A DNA stretch of 34,199 nt, taken from NCBI GenBank assembly GCA_013375485.1, contig JABXKB010000011.1:1-34199 (forward strand). The letters run 5' to 3'. Below the pieces are notes generated by a model. That model searched no databases. It was not told the DNA's origin and saw only the letters and a program-made list of their open reading frames with translations. The position numbers and the translations under genes were made by a program. Origin of the DNA: Promethearchaeota archaeon. Lineage in GTDB: Archaea; Asgardarchaeota; Lokiarchaeia; Sigyniarchaeales; SOKP01. Of this stretch, positions 2,044-32,812 are shown piece by piece (position 1 is the stretch's first letter; each line of letters begins with the position of its first letter).

Positions 2044-5000
2044 ATGTTGTTAAAAAAATATAAGTTCATAATGATTTTAGGTATCATCGTCGGGTCATTG
2101 TTTTTTAGTATTTCTCCTCATTCTCATAAGAAGGAATTAGATGTCTCCAGGTTGAATTCTTTTCCGAATACTTCAGGGAACAACTTTGATTTAGTAGATA
2201 ATATATTAGATACAAAAATAAATTATCATAATATCTTAGGCTATTTTCCTCAATTATATCAACCTTCATTACAAGCTACGTATTATACTTTATATATCCT
2301 GAGTGAGATCGGAAGATTATCCAGTATTAATCAAACCGAGATGGTAAACTACATTCTGAGTTGCTATAATCCCAGTTCACATATATTTATAGACGATTAT
2401 GCCCGAAGATATTTAGATACCGACATTTCCAAGATGTATTATCCCTATACATCTCTGTTAGAGGTAAATTGCTATGCTCTATTATCTATTAGCATTCTAA
2501 ATAGCTTAGATTTAATTGATATCCAAGAATCAATTGATTTTATCTGGAGTTGTTATCAGCCAATTACCAGTGGATTTATGGGACAATCGTATGACTATTG
2601 GTTGCCTGACCATTTTAAATTATCCACTGCGGATAATACCTATTTTGCCATAACCACATTGGACCTGCTTATGAGTGACTGGAATGGCTATCTAACTGAG
2701 AGAAGCGATCTTATTCAATATCTAGAATCTTTACAATCAACCAATGCTTTTTTCTGGTATTTTGGGGGGTTTGAAAATGATAAAGATAACTCACTTGAAA
2801 CGATAGACATTTTTGAACCCAATTTACTATCCTCCTATTATTGTATCAAGGCTTTAGATATTTTTGGTATAGTAGATGTTATTAATATGAATAATTTTTA
2901 TCAATACCTAGGAGGGTTATATGATCCAGTAACCTTTAGCTTCCAAATGGCACATTTTTTACCTCTCGGGAACTACGGGAATAGTATCGCTACCTCTTTA
3001 GGCTTGATTCTTTCTGATCTCACATCTTATAGTAGTATTGATAGAAATAATGTAATTAATTTCATTCTTAATAATCGCAATAGTAAGGGTATCTGGGACT
3101 ATTCTACTGATTTTCTTTATTGTGAATTAATTGATACATATCAAGTAATAAGATCTTTATCGAATTCAGGAGAGTTATCACAATTATCAGAAGGTGATAA
3201 AGACTCAATCTCGACTGCATTAACCGATTTTGCTAGTTACTATGGATTTTCCTTGCTCTCTGAAGAATATACCTCTATTAATTTGTTATATGCTATAATT
3301 AATACATTTGACTTGTATAATAGAACTTCTGATTTAGATTATCAATATCTCTATTCCATGATTGAAGATTCTTGTGTATACCTTTCTGTTTCAGATTGTG
3401 AAGGATTTAATGCGGGTTTAATTTTTGAGGACACGTTTAGAAAATATCGTTCTTTCCCTATTGAATATTACTGTTCTGGAACCCAACAGTACTTTCAATA
3501 TGTTGAGAATTCATTATTATCTCATAAAAATACTTTTAATGCTTTGAGCTCATTAAAAATTCTTGAGATGATTGATGATTTTGAAATCGCTCATAATTTA
3601 AATGATTTATTGCAATCTATCTTGGATAGTCAATTTTTAGAAAATGGATATGATAATTATGGGGGTTTTTTACCATTTCTAACATTTTCTGTAGGCACTC
3701 CTGAGTATCAAGATAAAAAGATCTTTGTTGACTATTCTTATTACGCAATTAAAATTATGGAATTGCTGAGTGATTATTTAGGGTTAGGGGATATCACTAA
3801 TCTTGGGTTCGATATACCTGTTCTTAGTAGTTATATTCATAGTTATATTTTCGAGGATGTAAATTACCAATATTTTTCTCCTGGATATACCATGAATCCT
3901 GCGACTCTAATCGAGAATACCTTCTATGCTGTATATACCCTAAAAAGGATAGGGTTATATGATTTGGATGAGATAAAAGTTAAGAATTTTTTATTAGATT
4001 ACATTAATTATTCAAACATAAAGAGTGTGTATTATACCTATAAACTTTCTAAGATCTTAGATGAAGATATTCCGCTTAATTATGACCTTATTTATCAACT
4101 CATTGGAGATATATATTCAGAAGAGAACCATGAATATTATTTAACCACCGACAGGAAAAAGATTGATCAAGAAATTGTATTATGGGTTTCTGAAATGACG
4201 GTAGAAGATCTTAGTGACTCAAGTACTTTCATCAATATTGATCATCTTGAGGGGTGCGAGTTTCTATCTACTGGAAATAATATAACATTTACAATTAATG
4301 CAAAATATAGCGGAACGTATTGGTACTGGATTGATGGGATTCTTGTTGATTCGAGTACTTTCAATCCAGATGGAGATACCTTTGTATATTCATTAGATGG
4401 ATATACAGATAAAATTAAAGATTATACCGTAAAAATAAATGCAACTGCTTTAGACGATACATATGGAGAGATTATAGCTATGTTTAGCGTCTATTCTGAA
4501 TCAAGCACTATTGTAAATATTATTTCATTAGAAAATTATGAATATATGACGATAGGACATACCATCACATTTTCACTCCATTCTCAATATCCAGATTGTT
4601 ACAATTTTTCAGTGGACAACATTGAAATAATTTCCGATACATATTATGATGGGCAAGTATTTCAGTTTTCTATTGATGGTTATGGAGTAGAAACACATGA
4701 GGTGGAAATATGGGCAAGAGGATTAGATGGAAAAGAAGGAAATGCATATTCTACGTTTATGGTTTATTCTACTTCAGAAACTACAATTACTATTCATTCT
4801 ATTGATAATTATGTGTACAACTCAACAGGTAATTTTATTAATTTTAGTATAAGTTCAGATTTTCCAGAAAATTATTCTATCGAGATTGATGGGGAGATTG
4901 TAGAAAAAAGTACCTACATAAGTAATGAATCGATATTATATTCAATAGATGGGTATACTTCTGGATTACATTGGTTGCATATTTGGGCTAATAGTTCAGA

Positions 5001-7449
5001 TAAGAAAGAGACGACTTCAAGCGTTCGATTTGACGTGTTTACCAACTCATTTTTAGAAATTGAGATCCGACATCTTAATAACTACGAATTTAAATCTACG
5101 GGGAATTATATATTATTTTATCTTAATACATCCTTTCCTGATTCTTATAAATTATTTATCGATGAAATCGAGAAAGGTTCTGGGGTTTATCATTATGGGG
5201 GCGAAGTATTTAATTATTCTACAGATGGTTATTTTATAGGAGATCATAATATTTCTATCTGGGCCAATTCAACCGATGGGAAGGAAGCGATATGTAAGTC
5301 AAGCTTTACTGTATATTCACTTTCAAATACAATAGTAACTATTGAAGAACTCCCCGATTATGAATTCTTAACTACAGGACATTTTGTAAAATTTAATATT
5401 AGCTCTCTATATCCAGATTATTTTATAATTTCTATTGATGGTATTGAGATTAATAATAGTGATTATATTAGCGGGAAATTTTACTATCAATCCATTGACG
5501 GATATTCAACAGGATTTCACACGCTTTCAATTTGGGCAATTGGAGAGGATGAGAAAGTAGGAACCGCATCATCTGATTTTAATGTATATTCTAATTCTAC
5601 TACAATTATTGTGATCAACGAAATCCCTAATTATGAATTTATGACAATAGGGAATAACATTAATTTTAGTATATCTTCTTTCTACGATGGCGAATATAAT
5701 GTTTCAATAAACGATATATTAATAGATGAAGATTTATACACAGTAGGAGAGGCTATTACATACTCATCTGATGGGTATTCCGTAGGAGATCATACCGTTT
5801 TAATATGTGCTAAAAGCCTTGATGGAAAAACGGCTCAATACGAGACAATATTTACAGTATACTCTAATTCCACTACATTAATTAACATTCATAACCTTCA
5901 AGGATGTGAATTTATGTCTGTGAATAATTATTTGAATTTCTCCATTCATTCCAGTTATCCAGATTATTACACTCTAATGATTAACGATATATTAGTTCTA
6001 ACCGATAATTATTCAAATGGGGAATACCTATTATATTCGCTTGATAACTATACATCTACTATGGGGAACTATTCTGTCTCTATTTGGGCAATCGGGAAGG
6101 ATGGGAAAGAGGGATCTATTACCGCAGAGTTTAGTGTATATTCAACATCTGTTACCTTAATTAATATTCATAACCTTCAAGGATGCGAATTTATGTCCAT
6201 AGGCAATTACTTAAATTTTTCCATTCATTCCAGCTATTCGGATTATTACACTCTAAAGATTAATGATATACTAGTTCTAACCGGTAATTATTCAGACGGA
6301 GAATATATTATATATTCACTTGATAACTATACTTCTGAAATAGGAAATTATACAGTGTCAATCTGGGCAATCGGGAAGGATGGGAAAGTGGGTACAAGCA
6401 TTGCTCAATTCAAAGTCTATTCTGCTTCGGAAACTATAATTAACATTCATAACCTTCAAGGATGCGAATTTATGTCCGTAGGAAATTTCCTAAACTTCTC
6501 AGTAAGCTCACGTTATCCAGATTATTACACTCTAAAAGTTGATGATGTACTAGTCACAATAGATAATTACTCGAATGGAGAATATATTGTACATTCACTT
6601 GATAATTATACATCTACAATAGGAAATCATTCTATTTCCATCTGGGCAATTGGGAAAGATGACAAAGTTGGTATATACGTAGATAAATTTAAGGTGTATT
6701 CAGCTTCGGAGCTTTTAATAGAAATTAATAGATTGGAAGATTTTGAATTCCTTACCACTGGAAACGAGTTAGAATTTACTATTTTTTCAAATTATTCCAG
6801 ATATTATGAACTTCATATTGACAATCACCTAATATCGAAAAATAATTATAGTAATGCAATTCCTATCATCTTTTCCTTGGATAATTATACAACATCGCTT
6901 GGAAAACATACTGTAAATATTTTCGCGACTAGTCTAGATGGAAAAAATTCAACAGTTCAAATAGATTTTTGGGTATATTCTGCCTCAGAAATTGAAATTA
7001 CCATTATGAAACTTGAGGATTATGAATTTAATTCCACCGGAAATGAACTAATTGTCAATATATCGTGTAAATATTCTGTGTTTTATAGTATTTTTATTGA
7101 TACTTTAGTCATAGATTCTGGGAATTACACTGAAGGGCAATTAATTTCCCTTCCTATAGATGATTATGATATTGGACAACACAACATTAGTATCTGGGCA
7201 AAAAGCCTTGATGGGAAAGAAATCGAAGTTAATACTACCTTTACAGTATACTATGAAGAAGAGATTGAAGAAGAAGAAAATGATGAAGAAAATGATAATA
7301 GACCCAATAAGTTTAAATTGAGCATTTTGATAGGATCTATCGTAATGAGTGCATTTATGATTGCAATACCAACGATAGTAATAATTTTCTCTACAGTTTA
7401 TCATAATAAGATAAGTAAAAGATTCTCCTATAATATCAAGAAGAATTGA
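2044..7449 (+). CDS. Giant cell-surface protein: signal peptide, alpha/alpha-toroid (prenyltransferase/squalene-oxidase-like repeat) N-terminus, 11 Ig-like repeats, C-terminal TM anchor
   Basis: 1801-aa ORF. Hydrophobic N-terminus; repeated ..YYTLYILSEIG.., ..YYCIKALDIFG.., ..ATSLGLILSDL.. helical repeats; 11 repeats of ~91-93 aa ending in FxVYS; acidic linker EEEIEEEENDEEND and a TM helix with basic tail. Confidence 0.85.
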   Translation: MLLKKYKFIMILGIIVGSLFFSISPHSHKKELDVSRLNSFPNTSGNNFDLVDNILDTKINYHNILGYFPQLYQPSLQATYYTLYILSEIGRLSSINQTEMVNYILSCYNPSSHIFIDDYARRYLDTDISKMYYPYTSLLEVNCYALLSISILNSLDLIDIQESIDFIWSCYQPITSGFMGQSYDYWLPDHFKLSTADNTYFAITTLDLLMSDWNGYLTERSDLIQYLESLQSTNAFFWYFGGFENDKDNSLETIDIFEPNLLSSYYCIKALDIFGIVDVINMNNFYQYLGGLYDPVTFSFQMAHFLPLGNYGNSIATSLGLILSDLTSYSSIDRNNVINFILNNRNSKGIWDYSTDFLYCELIDTYQVIRSLSNSGELSQLSEGDKDSISTALTDFASYYGFSLLSEEYTSINLLYAIINTFDLYNRTSDLDYQYLYSMIEDSCVYLSVSDCEGFNAGLIFEDTFRKYRSFPIEYYCSGTQQYFQYVENSLLSHKNTFNALSSLKILEMIDDFEIAHNLNDLLQSILDSQFLENGYDNYGGFLPFLTFSVGTPEYQDKKIFVDYSYYAIKIMELLSDYLGLGDITNLGFDIPVLSSYIHSYIFEDVNYQYFSPGYTMNPATLIENTFYAVYTLKRIGLYDLDEIKVKNFLLDYINYSNIKSVYYTYKLSKILDEDIPLNYDLIYQLIGDIYSEENHEYYLTTDRKKIDQEIVLWVSEMTVEDLSDSSTFINIDHLEGCEFLSTGNNITFTINAKYSGTYWYWIDGILVDSSTFNPDGDTFVYSLDGYTDKIKDYTVKINATALDDTYGEIIAMFSVYSESSTIVNIISLENYEYMTIGHTITFSLHSQYPDCYNFSVDNIEIISDTYYDGQVFQFSIDGYGVETHEVEIWARGLDGKEGNAYSTFMVYSTSETTITIHSIDNYVYNSTGNFINFSISSDFPENYSIEIDGEIVEKSTYISNESILYSIDGYTSGLHWLHIWANSSDKKETTSSVRFDVFTNSFLEIEIRHLNNYEFKSTGNYILFYLNTSFPDSYKLFIDEIEKGSGVYHYGGEVFNYSTDGYFIGDHNISIWANSTDGKEAICKSSFTVYSLSNTIVTIEELPDYEFLTTGHFVKFNISSLYPDYFIISIDGIEINNSDYISGKFYYQSIDGYSTGFHTLSIWAIGEDEKVGTASSDFNVYSNSTTIIVINEIPNYEFMTIGNNINFSISSFYDGEYNVSINDILIDEDLYTVGEAITYSSDGYSVGDHTVLICAKSLDGKTAQYETIFTVYSNSTTLINIHNLQGCEFMSVNNYLNFSIHSSYPDYYTLMINDILVLTDNYSNGEYLLYSLDNYTSTMGNYSVSIWAIGKDGKEGSITAEFSVYSTSVTLINIHNLQGCEFMSIGNYLNFSIHSSYSDYYTLKINDILVLTGNYSDGEYIIYSLDNYTSEIGNYTVSIWAIGKDGKVGTSIAQFKVYSASETIINIHNLQGCEFMSVGNFLNFSVSSRYPDYYTLKVDDVLVTIDNYSNGEYIVHSLDNYTSTIGNHSISIWAIGKDDKVGIYVDKFKVYSASELLIEINRLEDFEFLTTGNELEFTIFSNYSRYYELHIDNHLISKNNYSNAIPIIFSLDNYTTSLGKHTVNIFATSLDGKNSTVQIDFWVYSASEIEITIMKLEDYEFNSTGNELIVNISCKYSVFYSIFIDTLVIDSGNYTEGQLISLPIDDYDIGQHNISIWAKSLDGKEIEVNTTFTVYYEEEIEEEENDEENDNRPNKFKLSILIGSIVMSAFMIAIPTIVIIFSTVYHNKISKRFSYNIKKN
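4219..7254 (+). repeat. 11 tandem Ig-like coding repeats (~273-279 bp each)
   Basis: Pattern I.I..L..yEFmstGN.lnFsI.s.YpdyY...ID.i.......Y..Ge...YSlDgYt...G.H.vsIWA...DGK......F.VYS. Units starting at 5869, 6148, 6427 and 6706 are spaced exactly 279 bp. Confidence 0.9.
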
Positions 7450-10586: not shown

Positions 10587-11335
10587 GTGCGACACAAAAA
10601 GAAAGGACTTTTTTATTTATTTTGTTCATCTATTTTTCAATTTATTTTTATTTAGGAATTTTACCTGCCAATATTGAGAATTTACTCAGACAGCTTTCTG
10701 GAGCATCGAACTTTGGTGTAAGCTTTATAATAACTTTAGGGTTGATAAGTCTTACGATCAGCATGATATTGTTTGGCTATTTTAGTAATTACTTATCTTA
10801 AAGGATCGGAAGAAAGAATCTATTTATTTTTACTAATTTACTCTGGATAGTTTCTATTGGAGTTATTAGTATTTCTCCCAACTATATTTTCTTTATTGTT
10901 TTTTATATGATAGCTGCACTTGGAAACGGAGCATTTTTACCAATTGGGTTTTCCATAATAAGCGATTTATACGGACCAGAACAGAGGGGCGTTAAGTTCG
11001 GTATGATGTATGTAGGGTTATCTTTGGGAAATGGATTAGGGATCATTTTCGGAGGCTTGTTAGGATGGAGGCTCGGATTTTTAGTAAGTTGTATTTTAGG
11101 TGCAGTTGGAATCTTAGGGTATTTTAAACATGCTATTGATCCAAAGAGTACGGAATACCAAGAAACAAGAGTAGTACAAGTATACAATAATCAAATAACA
11201 GCGAGAACTTTAATGGATGTAGTGAAGACTAAGACTGTTTTTGGCATTCTATTTTTTGTATTTTGTTCCGGAATTGCAACCTCTACACTCTCCAATGGGG
11301 GTATATTTTATCTAAACCTTCAACTAAATAATAAG
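10583..11335 (+). pseudogene. MFS transporter N-terminal half, interrupted by in-frame TAA and truncated
   Basis: Continuous frame 10583-~11335 with one TAA at 10799-10801 (GYFSNYLS*RIGRKNLFIF). MFS-like GNGAFLPIGFSIISDLYGPEQRGVKFGMMYVGLSLGNGLGIIFGGLLG. The 3' part runs into the antisense of the convergent gene. Confidence 0.75.
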
Positions 11336-13231
11336 ATGATGGCTATTTTTTCCTATCCATTCGTATGTAAATTGTTCCATAAGTTTTGGCGTCAATTTAT
11401 CTTTAATTAAAGTAAGACTTGTTTCATCAAAGCTGTACGATTTCTGATAATAGGGAATAGCAAAATCGTGATGCAAATTTACTTTTATTTTATGAAATTT
11501 CAGAAAGACATATCCTATAATTATCGATAAAAGTCCTATTAAGCCAAAACCTAAATTAATTAATAGTGTTAAGGCTGAATATTGCTGGAAAATAAATATA
11601 AATATAAATACTAATGAATATAAAAGAAAAGGAAATCCTATATTCCTCATGTTTAACCAAAATCTATCTTTGGCAATATAATATACTTTATATGCTCGTT
11701 TTTGCTCATCATATTCTTCAGAAAGCATATATTTTTGATCAATATATTCTAAAAATTTAGTTAATTGAGAAATCGAAACCACATGAAAATTATTGGTCTT
11801 TTGATATGCAAAAGGTAGAACTTTTTCTGTAAATCCAACTGAATTCTGACAAACAATCAGTGGTTCAATTAATAATTTATATTGACGTTGTCCTGAATGA
11901 AGAAATAAAACCTTATTAGTAATAGTCTTTTTGACAATAATATTTGTATTTAGATGGTCATCTAAGTGCTTAGAAAATTTACCTCTATTCACAATATCAT
12001 CATAAATAACTTTCCTTGCTTTATCCAATGCCTTCATGTAAGAGAGGGGTATTCTATCAATATGAAAATTATTTTTTTTATGTTCTTTTGGTTTGTAATC
12101 AATTTTATCTTCAGAGACGATAAGAGAGCCTTTTAACCTACAGATTTTTATAGGTATTAGTAAAAGTAAGTCTAAGAACTCATGGACTTGTATGGATTTA
12201 ATTGCCACCATATCAATTCCATCATGGATTACCCTTAAATCTGGGTGCTTATTTATAATATCAAAATCACCTAATTTGACTTCACCAAATATAACATCTG
12301 TCAATTTATTTAAATTTTGATAACTCAAACTTTCCTTATGGGTTTCCTTCTCATCTTGAATTGAGGATAATGTATCTACTTTACCTAAGTCTACATCTTG
12401 TTGTTCTATTAAAATCGGTTTTCTCTCAATAATTTCTTTTGAATCTATAATCTCTCGAACTTGCGTAATGTTAAGATTGTTAGTTTTTATTAAATCTACT
12501 TTATTATTTATTTCGCTATTGATTTCGTTTAAATCATCAATTTTTTCATCTACATCTTCATCTTCTTCATACTCCTGTAAATTTATTTCTTTTCTCCTCC
12601 TATTGTAACTTCTTCCTAATCTTGAATACTTGAACTTTTCTTCAAACCAAGGTTCGTTATTAATTGATTTACTATATGGACCTTTATTTTCCAGATTTTC
12701 TTCATATTTTAAAGAATTATCCTCCCCTTTCAGATTTTCATTAAAGTCTCCTTGAATTTGTTGATAATTATCATCCTCAACAGGCTGAGAAAAATCATTT
12801 AGTTTCTTTAGGGTTAGATGACTTTTTGCTCCATTTACAATTTTTTGAGCTGTAGCTACTCCAATTCCTGCGATTGAAGATGCTAATGTCCTTGGTGGAG
12901 TATTCGCTAACACTTCTATTGACTTGATATTCCCATCATTCAATTTTTTAGCAACTGCAGGTCCAACTCCTTTAATAATTGTAAAGTCTTCTTTTACAAT
13001 ACTTGTTGTAAGTACACTCTGGTCTGAGGAGGGTTGAGAAAGTCGAGAATTTAAAGTATCAAATTTTTCAACCCAATCTGCTTTTTTTTGTGATTGAGCA
13101 AACTTAAGACCATCCTTGGATATTTTAAGGGCTTGTTCTATATCATATGCTTGAGCAGCTTCTTCAGCCAATTTATAGTAAAATTTTAAATCCGGTTCTT
13201 TTTGAATAAGATTTTTTTGCGTATCCGTCAT
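11324..13231 (-). CDS. TPR-like N-terminus + RadA-type helix-hairpin-helix domain + C-terminal transmembrane segments
   Basis: DFTIIKGVGPAVAKKLNDGNIKSIEVLANTPPRTLASSIAGIGVATAQKIVNGAK (HhH); two hydrophobic stretches near the C-terminus (FPFLLYSLVFIFIFIFQ; LLINLGFGLIGLLSIIIGYVFL). Confidence 0.65.
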   Translation of the reverse strand: MTDTQKNLIQKEPDLKFYYKLAEEAAQAYDIEQALKISKDGLKFAQSQKKADWVEKFDTLNSRLSQPSSDQSVLTTSIVKEDFTIIKGVGPAVAKKLNDGNIKSIEVLANTPPRTLASSIAGIGVATAQKIVNGAKSHLTLKKLNDFSQPVEDDNYQQIQGDFNENLKGEDNSLKYEENLENKGPYSKSINNEPWFEEKFKYSRLGRSYNRRRKEINLQEYEEDEDVDEKIDDLNEINSEINNKVDLIKTNNLNITQVREIIDSKEIIERKPILIEQQDVDLGKVDTLSSIQDEKETHKESLSYQNLNKLTDVIFGEVKLGDFDIINKHPDLRVIHDGIDMVAIKSIQVHEFLDLLLLIPIKICRLKGSLIVSEDKIDYKPKEHKKNNFHIDRIPLSYMKALDKARKVIYDDIVNRGKFSKHLDDHLNTNIIVKKTITNKVLFLHSGQRQYKLLIEPLIVCQNSVGFTEKVLPFAYQKTNNFHVVSISQLTKFLEYIDQKYMLSEEYDEQKRAYKVYYIAKDRFWLNMRNIGFPFLLYSLVFIFIFIFQQYSALTLLINLGFGLIGLLSIIIGYVFLKFHKIKVNLHHDFAIPYYQKSYSFDETSLTLIKDKLTPKLMEQFTYEWIGKNSHHLII

Positions 13232-13390: not shown

Positions 13391-13511
13391 ATTTACTCCC
13401 ACCCCATACCCTGGATTTTTGTCTTTTGGTAGTGTAGTCTTCTACACTCTGATTTCGCGCTCCTCCTAACTTTTTTTGACGCGTACTTGCGTTAATGGGG
13501 CGGGAGTAGAT
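13391..13511 (-). ncRNA. Structured ncRNA, family copy A
   Basis: 14-bp closing stem UACUCCCGCCCCAU/AUGGGGUGGGAGUA; P2 ACGC/GCGU; P3 AGUGUAG-AAGA-CUACACU; then ACCAAAAGACAAAAAUCCAGGG, identical to copy B at 31413-31434. Confidence 0.75.
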
Positions 13512-13664
13512 CAACCTTTTTATAAGATAAGATTCATTTTTATGTATTTTGCTTTTTTTCTTTAAATTAAAGCAATTTACTTTATCTTCATAATAAGTAG
13601 AAAGTGATATATAATCGTCATTGTTTTTGGAAAAATTAAAGATGTAAAGAACGTCAAAAAAAGA

Positions 13665-27930: not shown

Positions 27931-28545
27931 ATGGCTCAAACCCTTAAAAAACAGTTTATCGATGTAAGAGATAGTTCTGACTACTATACAAAATTTTATA
28001 AATATCAAAATGGTCTCAAACCAATTGTTTTAAATTATTTGTTTCGCAATATTGCGTTTGTAACAAATCAAGATAAAATTAGAGCGTTAACCAACCTTGA
28101 TTACGAAAATATTACTGAAAATACAAAGATACCAGTTAAACTTATTCATAAATTCGTAAGCTGTTTTTTAATAGATCTACTAAGGTTTAAACTATTTCTC
28201 CAGAAAAATCCCCAGATCCTTAATTCAAAGAAACAAAATCGGAAAGTATACATATATCTACATAAGTTTTATTGAATAGCTCCTGTATTTGATTATAAAA
28301 GGGCAAGAGAAAATGCTAGAATTTTGAAACTTAAACTTAATCAATTATTTTTTTGGCCACAAATTATGACCCAAATAGCAATTATTATATTTATTACCGA
28401 CTTACTTGATAAGAATCATTCCCAGAAAATAATTCAAACAAATATAAGAGCACTTTGCGATTGTTCTGCTTATGCATTTCATAGAACTCGTAACAAAATC
28501 GGGTTAACTTCAAAATATATCAAGAATTTACTCATTTTAAAATAA
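27931..28545 (+). pseudogene. TFB/cyclin-like paralog of 303-905, interrupted by in-frame TGA
   Basis: YIYLHKFY*IAPVFDYKRARENARILKLKLNQLFFWPQIMTQIAIIIF aligns with RIYLHKLYRMAPIFDYKRARENAGILKKKLDHLFFWPQVMTQIAVIIF; stop TGA at 28273-28275 replaces Arg. Confidence 0.85.
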
Positions 28546-28885: not shown

Positions 28886-29803
28886 ATGATAGAACGAGCA
28901 GAGCAGGTGTATCAAGCCTTAATGGACCTTGGATTAAGTGAAGATGAAATTAATTCCCAAATCAACAAGAAACTTATGGAATATCAAGGTTTTATGACAA
29001 AAGAAGGTGCACTATATTTGATTGGGAAAGAGAATGGTATCGACGTCTATTCTTCAGATCCTAACATCCAAAAAGAAATTGAAGAGCTTATTGATTACAA
29101 TGATTTTGCAATTCTTATTGAAGATATAATTGAAGGGATGCAAAATATAGTTATAGTAGGAAGAGTTACAGATATTTTTGGGATAAATAACTTTACCAAA
29201 AAGGACGGTACATCAGGGATTGTTGGTTCGTTTCAAATCTGTGATCTGTCTAACTGTATTAAGATCGTTTTATGGAATAATCAAGTCAAGGATATGGAAA
29301 ATGAGTATTTCAAGAAGGGTGAAATTATTCAAGTTATCGGAGGATATTCTAAAAAGGGAATTGATGACAACCTAGAAATTCATTTAAGTAGACAAGGAAA
29401 ATTAGTATTAGCACCAGAAGGCGTTACTCTACCAAAAATAAAAAAGAACGAAAATATAAATGTATATGAGGAAAAAGTTGGTAAAAAATCATCTAAATTT
29501 ACCATTGAAGAACTTCATATGAAAGAGGGATTTATACGATTTGTCAAGGGTACAGTACAAATTGATAAATTCAAGGAATTGACATTAAAAAACGGAGAAA
29601 AATCTTTTTTACTCAAGTTAATTCTAAGTGACGATACAGCATCAATTAGAGTAAATATTTGGGGTATAAAGGCTGTTGAATGTATAAAATTCGTTAATGA
29701 TGGAGCTGGTATCAAATTATCCAACGTTTTCTTAAAAGTAAATTCTTATTCAGATGAAAAAGAACTCAACTTTACAAAGAGTTCAAGATTAGAAGTTATT
29801 TAA
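28886..29803 (+). CDS. RPA-like single-stranded DNA-binding protein with OB folds
   Basis: IVIVGRVTDIFGINNFTKKDGTSGIVGSFQICDLSNCIKIVLWNNQ and GTVQIDKFKELTLKNGEKSFLLKLILSDDTASIRVNIWG OB-fold patterns. Confidence 0.75.
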   Translation: MIERAEQVYQALMDLGLSEDEINSQINKKLMEYQGFMTKEGALYLIGKENGIDVYSSDPNIQKEIEELIDYNDFAILIEDIIEGMQNIVIVGRVTDIFGINNFTKKDGTSGIVGSFQICDLSNCIKIVLWNNQVKDMENEYFKKGEIIQVIGGYSKKGIDDNLEIHLSRQGKLVLAPEGVTLPKIKKNENINVYEEKVGKKSSKFTIEELHMKEGFIRFVKGTVQIDKFKELTLKNGEKSFLLKLILSDDTASIRVNIWGIKAVECIKFVNDGAGIKLSNVFLKVNSYSDEKELNFTKSSRLEVI

Positions 29804-30405: not shown

Positions 30406-31251
30406 ATGATCATTTGGATATTAGATGCAGAATCTGGAGTTAAATTATTATATAGATCATTTCTGAAAACTGATGCTGATGAAGATATCGTTTCTGGATT
30501 TTTAACAGCTTTCCACCATTTCTCAATAATAGAATTTAAGGAATCATTGGATTCTATAGAAATGGGGGGTTTAAGGTGGGTCTATATATTAGAAGATAAA
30601 TATAAATTACTTTTTGTCGCAGCTGACACAAAACATATAAAAACTGAACTTTTGTTAGGTAGATTAAATGTTATTAAAAATGCGTTTGTAAAACAATTTG
30701 ATCCTGTTTGGGAGAAAAAAGGGCATAATTGGGATGGAGATATCAATATTTTTCTGCCGTTTCTTAATGAAATTGAAGATTATTATGACCAATGGGGAGA
30801 AGTGGAAAATTTAGCACAAGTAGCTGACTTTTTTGATTTTTTAGGTATTTTTCAAAAAATTTTAATAATGCTGAGAAATGTTGTAGAAAATAAAATGTAT
30901 ACCAAATCAAAAAATTTAATTCTAGAAAAAATTGAAAACTTTTGTATTAATTTCAAAAACCACAAAGATTTTCAAAATAAACCGGAGTTAAAGAACATTT
31001 CTTTTAGTAAAGAATCATGGTTTAACATTAAAGACATTAATTTAATTAAAAGTGATACTGTTATGGTTATTAAAAATCTAAAAATGATACTTACTCAAAT
31101 TGTAAATATTTTAAGGGAAGTAAAAGGAAACAACTCGTGTTTTAAATATTTTAGCGAGGAAAATATTTATGCTTATCTTTATAACAATATGAAACTCTTA
31201 AAAGATTTGAATTTAGATACGTATCTGTTAGGAACTTTTCTTTTATTATAG
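30406..31251 (+). CDS. Longin-like domain protein (Asgard type) with helical C-terminus
   Basis: MIIWILDAESGVKLLYRSFLKTDADEDIVSGFLTAFHHFS...GLRWVYILEDKYKLLFVAADTKHIKTELLLGRLNVIKNAFVKQF fits a longin fold. Confidence 0.7.
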   Translation: MIIWILDAESGVKLLYRSFLKTDADEDIVSGFLTAFHHFSIIEFKESLDSIEMGGLRWVYILEDKYKLLFVAADTKHIKTELLLGRLNVIKNAFVKQFDPVWEKKGHNWDGDINIFLPFLNEIEDYYDQWGEVENLAQVADFFDFLGIFQKILIMLRNVVENKMYTKSKNLILEKIENFCINFKNHKDFQNKPELKNISFSKESWFNIKDINLIKSDTVMVIKNLKMILTQIVNILREVKGNNSCFKYFSEENIYAYLYNNMKLLKDLNLDTYLLGTFLLL

Positions 31252-31295
31252 AGATAATAATAGCTTTTATAAAGATTCAGATCTTCTTTTTTAAC

Positions 31296-31303
31296 TTTAA
31301 AAT
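31296..31303 (+). promoter_or_regulatory. TATA-like CTTTAAAA upstream of ncRNA copy B
   Basis: Located ~26-30 nt before the 5' edge of the closing stem. Confidence 0.3.
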
Positions 31304-31328
31304 TGTGCCAAAGTTCAAATTAATAAAG

Positions 31329-31448
31329 GAGGCTCCTGCCAACGAGCCTCAATGCGAGGCATAAACTTTCAAAAGGCAGAGTAGGTAATTCTTATGTGTA
31401 ATTTCTTACACAACCAAAAGACAAAAATCCAGGGAATTGACAGGAGCC
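31329..31448 (+). ncRNA. Structured ncRNA, family copy B
   Basis: Closing stem GGCUCCUGCCAA/UUGACAGGAGCC (one mismatch); P2 GCCUC-AAUGC-GAGGC; P3 UGUGUAA-UUUC-UUACACA; then ACCAAAAGACAAAAAUCCAGGG. Confidence 0.75.
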
Positions 31449-31675
31449 ATTGTTAGTAATTTATAACTTATCATGAAAATTTATGACTATATCATATAGA
31501 TTTGTTAAGTAATATAAAAATTTTAGCTCTATAGATATTACCTAATTTTTAATAAAGAGATTTTGAAAATTTAATAAAAAAAAATCAAATTCAATAACTT
31601 TCACCTTATATTAGTTATGGTTTTAATTAAATAGAAAGGTTCCTATATAACTCTATCACAAAATTTTGATGGTTT

Positions 31676-32812
31676 ATGCAAAAAATTGCAAAAGAAACGA
31701 TAATATCTTCATCCGATGATCAAATTTATGTAGATGCAGGTGTTCTTAGAAATTTTATGGAAGATGTGTTCATTAATCTTAAAGTTCCAGCAGAGCATGC
31801 TAAAATTATAGTAGATGTACTTATTACATCAGATTTAAGAGGGATTGACTCCCATGGAATCCAGAGATGCAAGATGTACTACGATCGAATACGAGAGGGA
31901 ATTTATAATCCTAAAACAGAGATTGAAATTGTTAGCGACAACAAATCTTCTGTTGTTATTGATGGAAAATGTGGTATGGGACATGTAATTGCCTTTAAAG
32001 CCATGAAAATGGCTATTGAGAAAGCTAAAAAATACGGCCTTGGAGCTGTAGCAGTTCGTAATAGTACTCATTTTGGGATTGCCGGTTATTATTCACTTAT
32101 GGCAATAAAAGAAGGAATGATAGGATTTATCACGACAAATACACGCCCTTCTGTACCGCCTACATTCGGGGTAGAACCTATGTTAGGAACAAATCCTTTA
32201 ACATATGGTGCCCCTACTGATGAGAGTTTTCCATTTTTATTAGATTGTGCTACATCTATCATTCAAAGAGGTAAAGTAGAGGTCTATAATAGACTTCATA
32301 AACCACTCCCTAATGGAGTAATTGTGTCAAATAATGGTAATTCAAAAACGGATGCTAGTGTAGTATTAGACAAGTTAGGTAACCGTTCTGCAGCATTATT
32401 GCCATTAGGAGGCGAAGGTGAAGATACTTCAGGCCATAAAGGATACGGATATGCTACTTTTGCTGAGATCTTATCTTCAGCATTACAAGATGGAGTATAT
32501 CTAAAAGATACAGCGGGGGTTATAGAAAATGGTCAAAAACGACTAAAAGTAGGCCATTTCTTTTTAGTTATTAATATCCAAAATTTCATTCCAATTGAAA
32601 AATTCAAACATAATACTGGTAGTATCATGAGAGAATTAAGAAGTTCTAAGAGGGCACCAGGGAAAGAAAGAATTTATACAGCAGGGGAAAAAGAATACTA
32701 TACTGAAACAGAAAGAAGAAAAAGTGGTATTCCAATAAATAAAAGCTTACAGAAAGATATTAAAATTATGCAAAAAGAACTTGAATTAGATAGTTATAAC
32801 TTTCCTTTTTAG
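31676..32812 (+). CDS. Malate/L-lactate/sulfolactate dehydrogenase (Ldh_2 family)
   Basis: TSDLRGIDSHGIQRC, VRNSTHFGIAGYYSLMA, GTNPLTYGAPTDESFPFLLDCATSI, LPLGGEGEDTSGHKGYGYATFAEILSS. Confidence 0.9.
   Translation: MQKIAKETIISSSDDQIYVDAGVLRNFMEDVFINLKVPAEHAKIIVDVLITSDLRGIDSHGIQRCKMYYDRIREGIYNPKTEIEIVSDNKSSVVIDGKCGMGHVIAFKAMKMAIEKAKKYGLGAVAVRNSTHFGIAGYYSLMAIKEGMIGFITTNTRPSVPPTFGVEPMLGTNPLTYGAPTDESFPFLLDCATSIIQRGKVEVYNRLHKPLPNGVIVSNNGNSKTDASVVLDKLGNRSAALLPLGGEGEDTSGHKGYGYATFAEILSSALQDGVYLKDTAGVIENGQKRLKVGHFFLVINIQNFIPIEKFKHNTGSIMRELRSSKRAPGKERIYTAGEKEYYTETERRKSGIPINKSLQKDIKIMQKELELDSYNFPF

Follow-up and report, generated by a model that had tools for sequence, protein, structure and literature searches.

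The 34,199-nucleotide (nt) window analyzed here (positions 1 to 34,199 of contig JABXKB010000011.1 from a Promethearchaeota archaeon, assembly GCA_013375485.1) carries at 31325-31451 an intergenic structured element of ~127 nt with three helices, hereafter copy B, which lies ~74 nt from the stop codon of a gene encoding a 281-amino-acid (281-aa) protein and ~225 nt from the start of an Ldh_2 gene. An earlier note on this DNA had placed a structured, orphan non-coding RNA (ncRNA) at 31329-31448 and had ascribed the same architecture to a second element, copy A. A structured intergenic element is indeed present, and copy A, likewise situated between genes, at 13391-13514 on the other strand, matches copy B in its stem arrangement and in an identical 22-nt core, ACCAAAAGACAAAAATCCAGGG as read on the plus strand. 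A covariance-model search of the window returned exactly two copies, with E values of 1e-27 (copy B) and 2e-24 (copy A). The copy B element is real, far beyond chance.

We used two covariance models, R1, built from 36 sequences, and R2, a second, minus-strand model, together with a minus-strand alignment of 50 sequences (A6) in which the closing stem P1 has 11 modelled pairs, P3 has 7, and P2 has 5. All results rest on genome sequences, mostly metagenome-assembled genomes (MAGs). The two copies and the parts of copy B are as follows.

31325..31451, minus strand: RNA gene copy B, ~127 nt, 5' end 31451 and 3' end ~31325 (model R2, 108.6 bits, E 1.1e-27; strand by four tests)
31436..31448, minus strand: 5' arm of the closing stem P1, GGCUCCUGUCAAU, pairing with 31331-31343 (13 unbroken pairs including two U.G; covariation)
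31413..31434, minus strand: U-rich core CCCUGGAUUUUUGUCUUUUGGU, ultraconserved and mostly unpaired (columns invariant or nearly so in 50/50 A6 sequences)
31395..31412, minus strand: P3 hairpin UGUGUAA-GAAA-UUACACA, with a GNRA tetraloop on the minus strand (folding, covariation, loop test)
31361..31394, minus strand: unpaired arm between P3 and P2, canonical form CGCCCUCCUCCCCCU, copy B type ACCUACUCUGCCUUUU (unpaired probabilities)
31346..31360, minus strand: P2 hairpin GCCUC-GCAUU-GAGGC (folding and covariation)
31331..31343, minus strand: 3' arm of P1, GUUGGCAGGAGCC, then a short U tract UCCUUUAUU (pairing and covariation)
13391..13514, plus strand: RNA gene copy A, same RNA family, divergent from an HhH-domain gene (model R2, 96.6 bits, E 2e-24)

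Structure and conservation of the RNA

The core lies between P1 and P3, and the arm between P3 and P2. In A6, two-sided (compensatory) changes were found at 20 of the 23 pairs, compared with 11.3 ± 1.7 in column shuffles and 8-14 when the partners were slid; the covariation score was 0.317 vs 0.169 in shuffles, and 89% of the helix cells were paired vs 36-45% with slid partners. These compensatory changes, together with the strand-specific wobble pairs and RNA tetraloops described below, identify the element as a structured RNA gene, not a DNA element or a product of chance. A mobile element resembling a miniature inverted-repeat transposable element, with P1 as its terminal inverted repeats, would account for the 1-12 intergenic copies per genome and for their sharp boundaries. 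It is nevertheless highly improbable: the locations are kept between species (19 radical SAM, 19 small membrane-protein, and 11 281-aa loci), the P1 sequences differ between copies by compensatory changes, and the strand-asymmetric wobble pairs and tetraloops require RNA.

The core is conserved more strongly than the arm, and P2 is absent from some copies while the core persists. In most copies the arm is C/U-rich, reading CGCCCUCCUCCCCCU or, for example, UCUUCUUUACUUCUCCCUUU in one genus (g3); the canonical form is kept across several genera, and the copy B group carries ACCUACUCUGCCUUUUGAAAG. An arm stretch of the CCUCC type is present in 50 of 74 copies. According to predicted folding, the mean unpaired probability is 0.67 for the AUUUUU of the core and 0.84 for the CCUCC-type stretch, compared with 0.46 for the whole RNA.

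Other assignments were tried. A small protein-coding gene was rejected because the linker before the core varies by 1-nt steps and the core has no free third positions. C/D box small RNAs (sRNAs) are recognized by a C box (RUGAUGA) and a D box (CUGA) near a k-turn; both boxes are missing from the copy B RNA, and no Rfam snoRNA scored above gathering. More broadly, a search of Rfam release 15 (4227 families) on both strands returned no match anywhere in the window at the gathering score and, at E <= 5, nothing on the element, in agreement with its description as an orphan; CopA, which came closest below threshold, falls on the flank and not on the element.

Strand of transcription

The earlier note had read copies A and B as co-oriented with the HhH-domain gene and the Ldh_2 gene, respectively. 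On that strand (the first-read strand, plus for copy B), A.C mismatches exceed G.U pairs in the paired columns and the 25-35 nt in front of the element show no positional TATA signal, and the strand was therefore re-examined by four tests. First, each helix was located by itself under a scheme that did not distinguish G.U from A.C; the interior helix mismatches on the first-read strand then amounted to 26 G.U vs 78 A.C (17:46, 5:13, and 4:19 in the three helices), or 21:51 (p = 5e-4) after events that shared genus, position, and pair type had been collapsed into one. Since every A.C mismatch reads as a G.U pair on the complementary strand, the opposite strand appears to carry the helices. Second, the opposite strand gave the lower minimum free energy (MFE) for 52 of the 60 non-redundant copies (Wilcoxon p ~1e-8), with z-scores against dinucleotide shuffles of -4.82 on that strand and -3.76 on the first-read strand; because G.U pairs feed the energy, this result overlaps in part with that of the first test. 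Third, of 46 distinct P3 hairpins with four-base loops, 11 have a GNRA or UNCG loop when read on the opposite strand and none when read on the first-read strand; composition predicts 4.0 and 0.9, respectively. Fourth, 25 strong TATA boxes lie upstream on the opposite strand (8.2 ± 2.9 in shuffles; 8 with the reversed motif) and 6 on the first-read strand (11.7 in shuffles), an enrichment that may partly come from promoters of divergent neighbors.

Copy B itself follows this pattern: P1 forms 13 unbroken pairs on the minus strand, its U.G pairs become A.C mismatches on the plus strand, and the MFE is -40.5 kcal/mol (minus) vs -33.7 kcal/mol (plus). For copy A, the MFE is -45.5 kcal/mol on the plus strand vs -41.2 kcal/mol on the other strand. 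We consider it very probable that copy B is transcribed from the minus strand.

The same free-standing RNA transcribed from the plus strand would fit the T-rich flank that follows the element there. Across the family, a run of five T (T5) after the element is commoner on the first-read strand (42% vs 23%), a feature that speaks against minus-strand transcription in that, taken alone, it could point to a terminator there. The signal recognition particle (SRP) RNA, taken as a control, showed only a mild composition asymmetry, so these T runs were weighed lightly, and the balance of G.U vs A.C, the MFE, the tetraloops, and the TATA boxes all point the opposite way, which leaves a plus-strand transcript very unlikely. 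Given the minus strand, copy B would be divergent from Ldh_2 and converge on the 281-aa gene; by the same four tests copy A is divergent from the HhH-domain gene, and the co-orientation reported earlier is lost for both copies. This correction has practical weight, as plus-strand probes or reporters would most likely detect nothing.

Promoter and transcript ends

Two further short features flank copy B.

31510..31527, minus strand: promoter candidate GCTAAAATTTTTATATTA, transcription factor B recognition element (BRE) plus TATA box, upstream of copy B (TATA position in orthologs; family enrichment)
31295..31302, plus strand: CTTTAAAA box of the earlier note, past the RNA 3' end (in close relatives only)

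Of the 11 loci orthologous to copy B, 9 have a BRE and TATA box at -66 to -70 relative to P1, though the gene beyond differs, and the TATA box reads GCTAAAATTTTTATAT in several. A promoter belonging to copy B itself, ~70 nt upstream on the minus strand, is well supported by this comparison, and the candidate at 31510..31527 would imply a start near 31490. The CTTTAAAA box had been cited as favoring an independent transcript; the string exists, but it is not on the promoter side, falls behind the 3' end, and at least 6 of the 11 orthologous loci lack it. At the 3' end, a run of four T (T4) is found in the short U tract after P1 in 53% of copies vs ~20% further away, the other strand being T-rich too.

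A terminator-like alternative hairpin at 31350-31329 (minus strand), GAGGCUC-N8-GAGCCUC + CUUUAUU, would exclude P1 and P2. This 7-bp hairpin is kept in only part of the copy B group and was not generalized.

Distribution of the RNA family

The source genome (4.6 Mb in 457 contigs) contains 5 copies of the core and RNA. A search with the core, allowing <= 2 mismatches, found it in 37 of 58 relatives and the reversed control pattern nowhere. Of 65 genomes sampled from the same Lokiarchaeal family (f1), 62 gave matches to model R1 for this ~125-nt RNA, at 1-12 copies per genome. In 14 sister-family genomes R1 gave a single weak, chance-like match, and across the wider phylum few isolated matches, with E values of 1e-4 to 8e-3; among 196 genomes, the weak matches outside the family comprised one in genome G039 at 0.003 and six others at or above 1.1e-4. 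The G039 match lies inside an open reading frame (ORF), and neither it nor a match in G186 came back when the minus-strand model was run with laxer filters; a sister-family match in G040 that was new with this second model (0.006) lacks the core. All these few matches were attributed to chance.

Named public sequences matching the core were almost all Candidatus Lokiarchaeota/Lokiarchaeia MAGs. Three viral contigs (L259-L261) hold a bare 19-mer in coding-looking sequence with no stem; these matches were put down to chance, and viral spread was rejected. The open-licence papers on Asgard archaea that we searched in full text contained no description of such an RNA, nor of any trans-acting regulatory RNA family. 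With no convincing match elsewhere, the RNA family appears to be previously undescribed and, in our sample, restricted to one Lokiarchaeal family.

Two loci (L183 and L207) on JANBVM01 contigs, labelled Patescibacteria bacterium AMOR_Bin_1762, hold genuine RNA copies (E 2.6e-20 and 3.5e-14 for L183); these contigs are probably misbinned Lokiarchaeal DNA. At four other loci (L095, L058, L126, and L114) the 19-nt core is kept and P2/P3 or the full element is not recognizable, and these would be either degenerate remnants or minimal forms of the RNA.

Genomic context

The genes flanking the two copies in the window are listed here.

30406..31251, plus strand: 281-aa gene, family not assigned, convergent with copy B (adjoins copy B in 11/11 orthologous loci)
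31676..32812, plus strand: Ldh_2 (malate/L-lactate dehydrogenase-like), divergent from copy B (Pfam PF02615, E 3.4e-119)
11324-13231, minus strand: HhH-domain gene, divergent from copy A

Over the whole family, clustering of the neighbors gives 20-28 unrelated groups per side, and their orientation is near random: counted by independent cluster, the two orientations number 22 vs 28 on one side and 20 vs 27 on the other. Listing the downstream genes of all members, which had been suggested as a way to find a consistent function, revealed none, and no Pfam domain was repeated among the neighbor representatives on either strand. Unrelated and randomly oriented neighbors argue for a free-standing sRNA gene and not for a riboswitch on either strand, and the genome comparison shows a gene independent of any single neighbor.

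Some neighbors do recur. Nineteen copies adjoin a radical SAM gene and 19 adjoin a small membrane-protein gene, largely at the same loci with the two genes on opposite sides. Eight copies, including copy A and a second copy in the source genome, lie 99-156 nt away from a divergent HhH-domain gene, and 11, copy B among them, adjoin the 281-aa gene, whose product (30406-31251) had no Pfam or NCBIfam match. The 281-aa gene is the constant convergent neighbor, found next to copy B at each of the 11 orthologous loci that were compared; Ldh_2 adjoins only some of them, with other genes at that position in several relatives. No dehydrogenase gene lies downstream of copy B in the minus-strand orientation.

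A cis-regulatory role, in which the element would act as a riboswitch or leader for whatever gene follows it on the first-read strand, such as Ldh_2, would be in keeping with the fairly constant distances at which copies stand beside the HhH-domain gene (99-156 nt) and the small membrane-protein gene (~200-420 nt). However, the strand is wrong by four tests, the orientation of neighbors is near random by cluster with no shared function on either strand, and Ldh_2 is not constant beside the copy B orthologs. We regard such a role as scarcely plausible. The earlier note had offered an sRNA or a cis-regulator and had leaned toward an independent transcript; that leaning agrees with the random neighbors and the promoter-like boxes, whereas the cis-regulatory option and the reasons drawn from the box and from co-orientation fail.

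The HhH-domain gene next to copy A has paralogs that are also divergent from an RNA copy at 99-156 nt (including locus L038), which suggests joint duplication of the RNA and the HhH gene.

Possible function

Our best explanation, held tentatively, is that the RNA is a free-standing, multicopy, trans-acting sRNA on the minus strand, with a protein-bound core and a C/U arm that would block Shine-Dalgarno (SD) sequences. The RNA, closed by P1 and carrying hairpins P3 and P2, would be transcribed from its own minus-strand promoter. A protein would bind its invariant U-rich core, CCCUGGAUUUUUGUCUUUUGGU; an Sm-like (SmAP/Lsm) ring is a plausible candidate, proposed because the core has an A-U5-G stretch. 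The C/U-rich arm (usually CGCCCUCCUCCCCCU) would pair in trans with purine-rich SD regions of mRNAs and block their translation, and the several copies with variant arms could provide dosage and different target sets. In the source genome, SD-like motifs precede ~19% of starts vs 5% in a control window, and at least 3 LSM-domain proteins are encoded above the Pfam cut-off; the 3' end of the 16S rRNA from the same genus is GGAUCACCUCC.

Several observations count against this proposal. The canonical arm showed no long complementarity to other genes of the source genome, and the pyrimidine runs of the arm follow composition more than arrangement (61/74 vs 67% in shuffles). In copy B the arm reads ACCUACUCUGCC, which does not amount to a simple anti-SD sequence, and the core deviates from the Sm consensus at the last position, with U and not a purine. 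Pairing between the arm and 16S rRNA was rejected: 14 of 15 positions match the decoding-site strand GAGGAGGGAGAAGUC by eye, but 90 of 300 shuffled arms did equally well, and the duplex energies were no better than for shuffled 16S either.

The core could also be the working part by itself, in a free-standing RNA whose sole role is to bind protein as a scaffold or decoy, either a ribonucleoprotein (RNP) resembling those of small nuclear RNAs (snRNAs) or a sponge, and which pairs with no mRNA. We see this as possible, though doubtful. The core stays invariant, and is better conserved than the arm, although arms and P2 change or vanish, and the genome encodes Sm-like proteins. In Sulfolobus, many trans-encoded ncRNAs co-purify with SmAP1/2 in pull-downs (PMC4500138). 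The Lokiarchaeal core resembles those RNAs in having a U5 stretch of the kind that Sm-like rings bind; they form a mixed set, whereas the Lokiarchaeal RNA is one covarying family. The conservation of the arm CGCCCUCCUCCCCCU across several genera, on the other hand, goes unexplained unless the arm also binds protein.

An unlikely extension would make the RNA the scaffold of an Asgard Sm-ring, snRNA-like RNP, with SmAP/Lsm on the A-U5-G core and the C/U arm as recognition strand; such a particle, with mRNA or pre-rRNA as its substrate, might represent a precursor-like archaeal counterpart of Sm-site RNPs. The Sm site of U snRNAs has the consensus Pu-A-U3-6-G-Pu. The Lokiarchaeal RNA resembles it in placing a mostly single-stranded GAUUUUUGU between two stems and differs from it in that GAUUUUUGU ends in U, not a purine, and that the flanking core is far longer. 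Asgard archaea are the lineage closest to eukaryotes; no snRNPs are known from archaea.

Aptamers and ribozymes, too, join covarying helices by long, conserved junction strands, and the junction of core and arm could form the ligand pocket or active site of a free-standing riboswitch-like or catalytic RNA. There is, however, no expression platform and no consistent adjacent gene, several copies occur per genome, and neither a recognized ribozyme nor an Rfam match was found; we think this reading improbable.

For the preferred explanation of a trans-acting sRNA, the nearest functional analog that we found is the LhrC family of Listeria monocytogenes, with 5 copies of 111-114 nt whose CU-rich motifs block an SD sequence, to which LhrC pairs; LhrC binds Hfq, an Sm-like protein, and has three UCCC motifs and a bacterial terminator (PMC4132741). 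The two are alike in being multicopy (5), of similar size, and structured, with CU-rich motifs, and they differ in their domain of life and in the invariant U-rich core, which only the Lokiarchaeal RNA has. The resemblance would be one of function and not of membership, and no homology is claimed.

Whatever its role, an RNA that nearly all sampled genomes of one Lokiarchaeal family carry, in multiple copies and with an invariant core of 22 nt, offers a handle (as a probe, a bait, or a covariance model), which may serve the study of post-transcriptional control and of Sm-like proteins in Lokiarchaea.

Other features of the window

Elsewhere in the window, positions 2044-7449 hold an ORF of 1801 aa with tandem repeats of 273-279 nt. 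In addition, two pairs of stretches (351-813 vs 27979-28441, and 1132-1216 vs 29718-29802) are 69-71% alike and lie ~27.6-28.6 kb apart, which suggests that a set of genes was duplicated inside the window.
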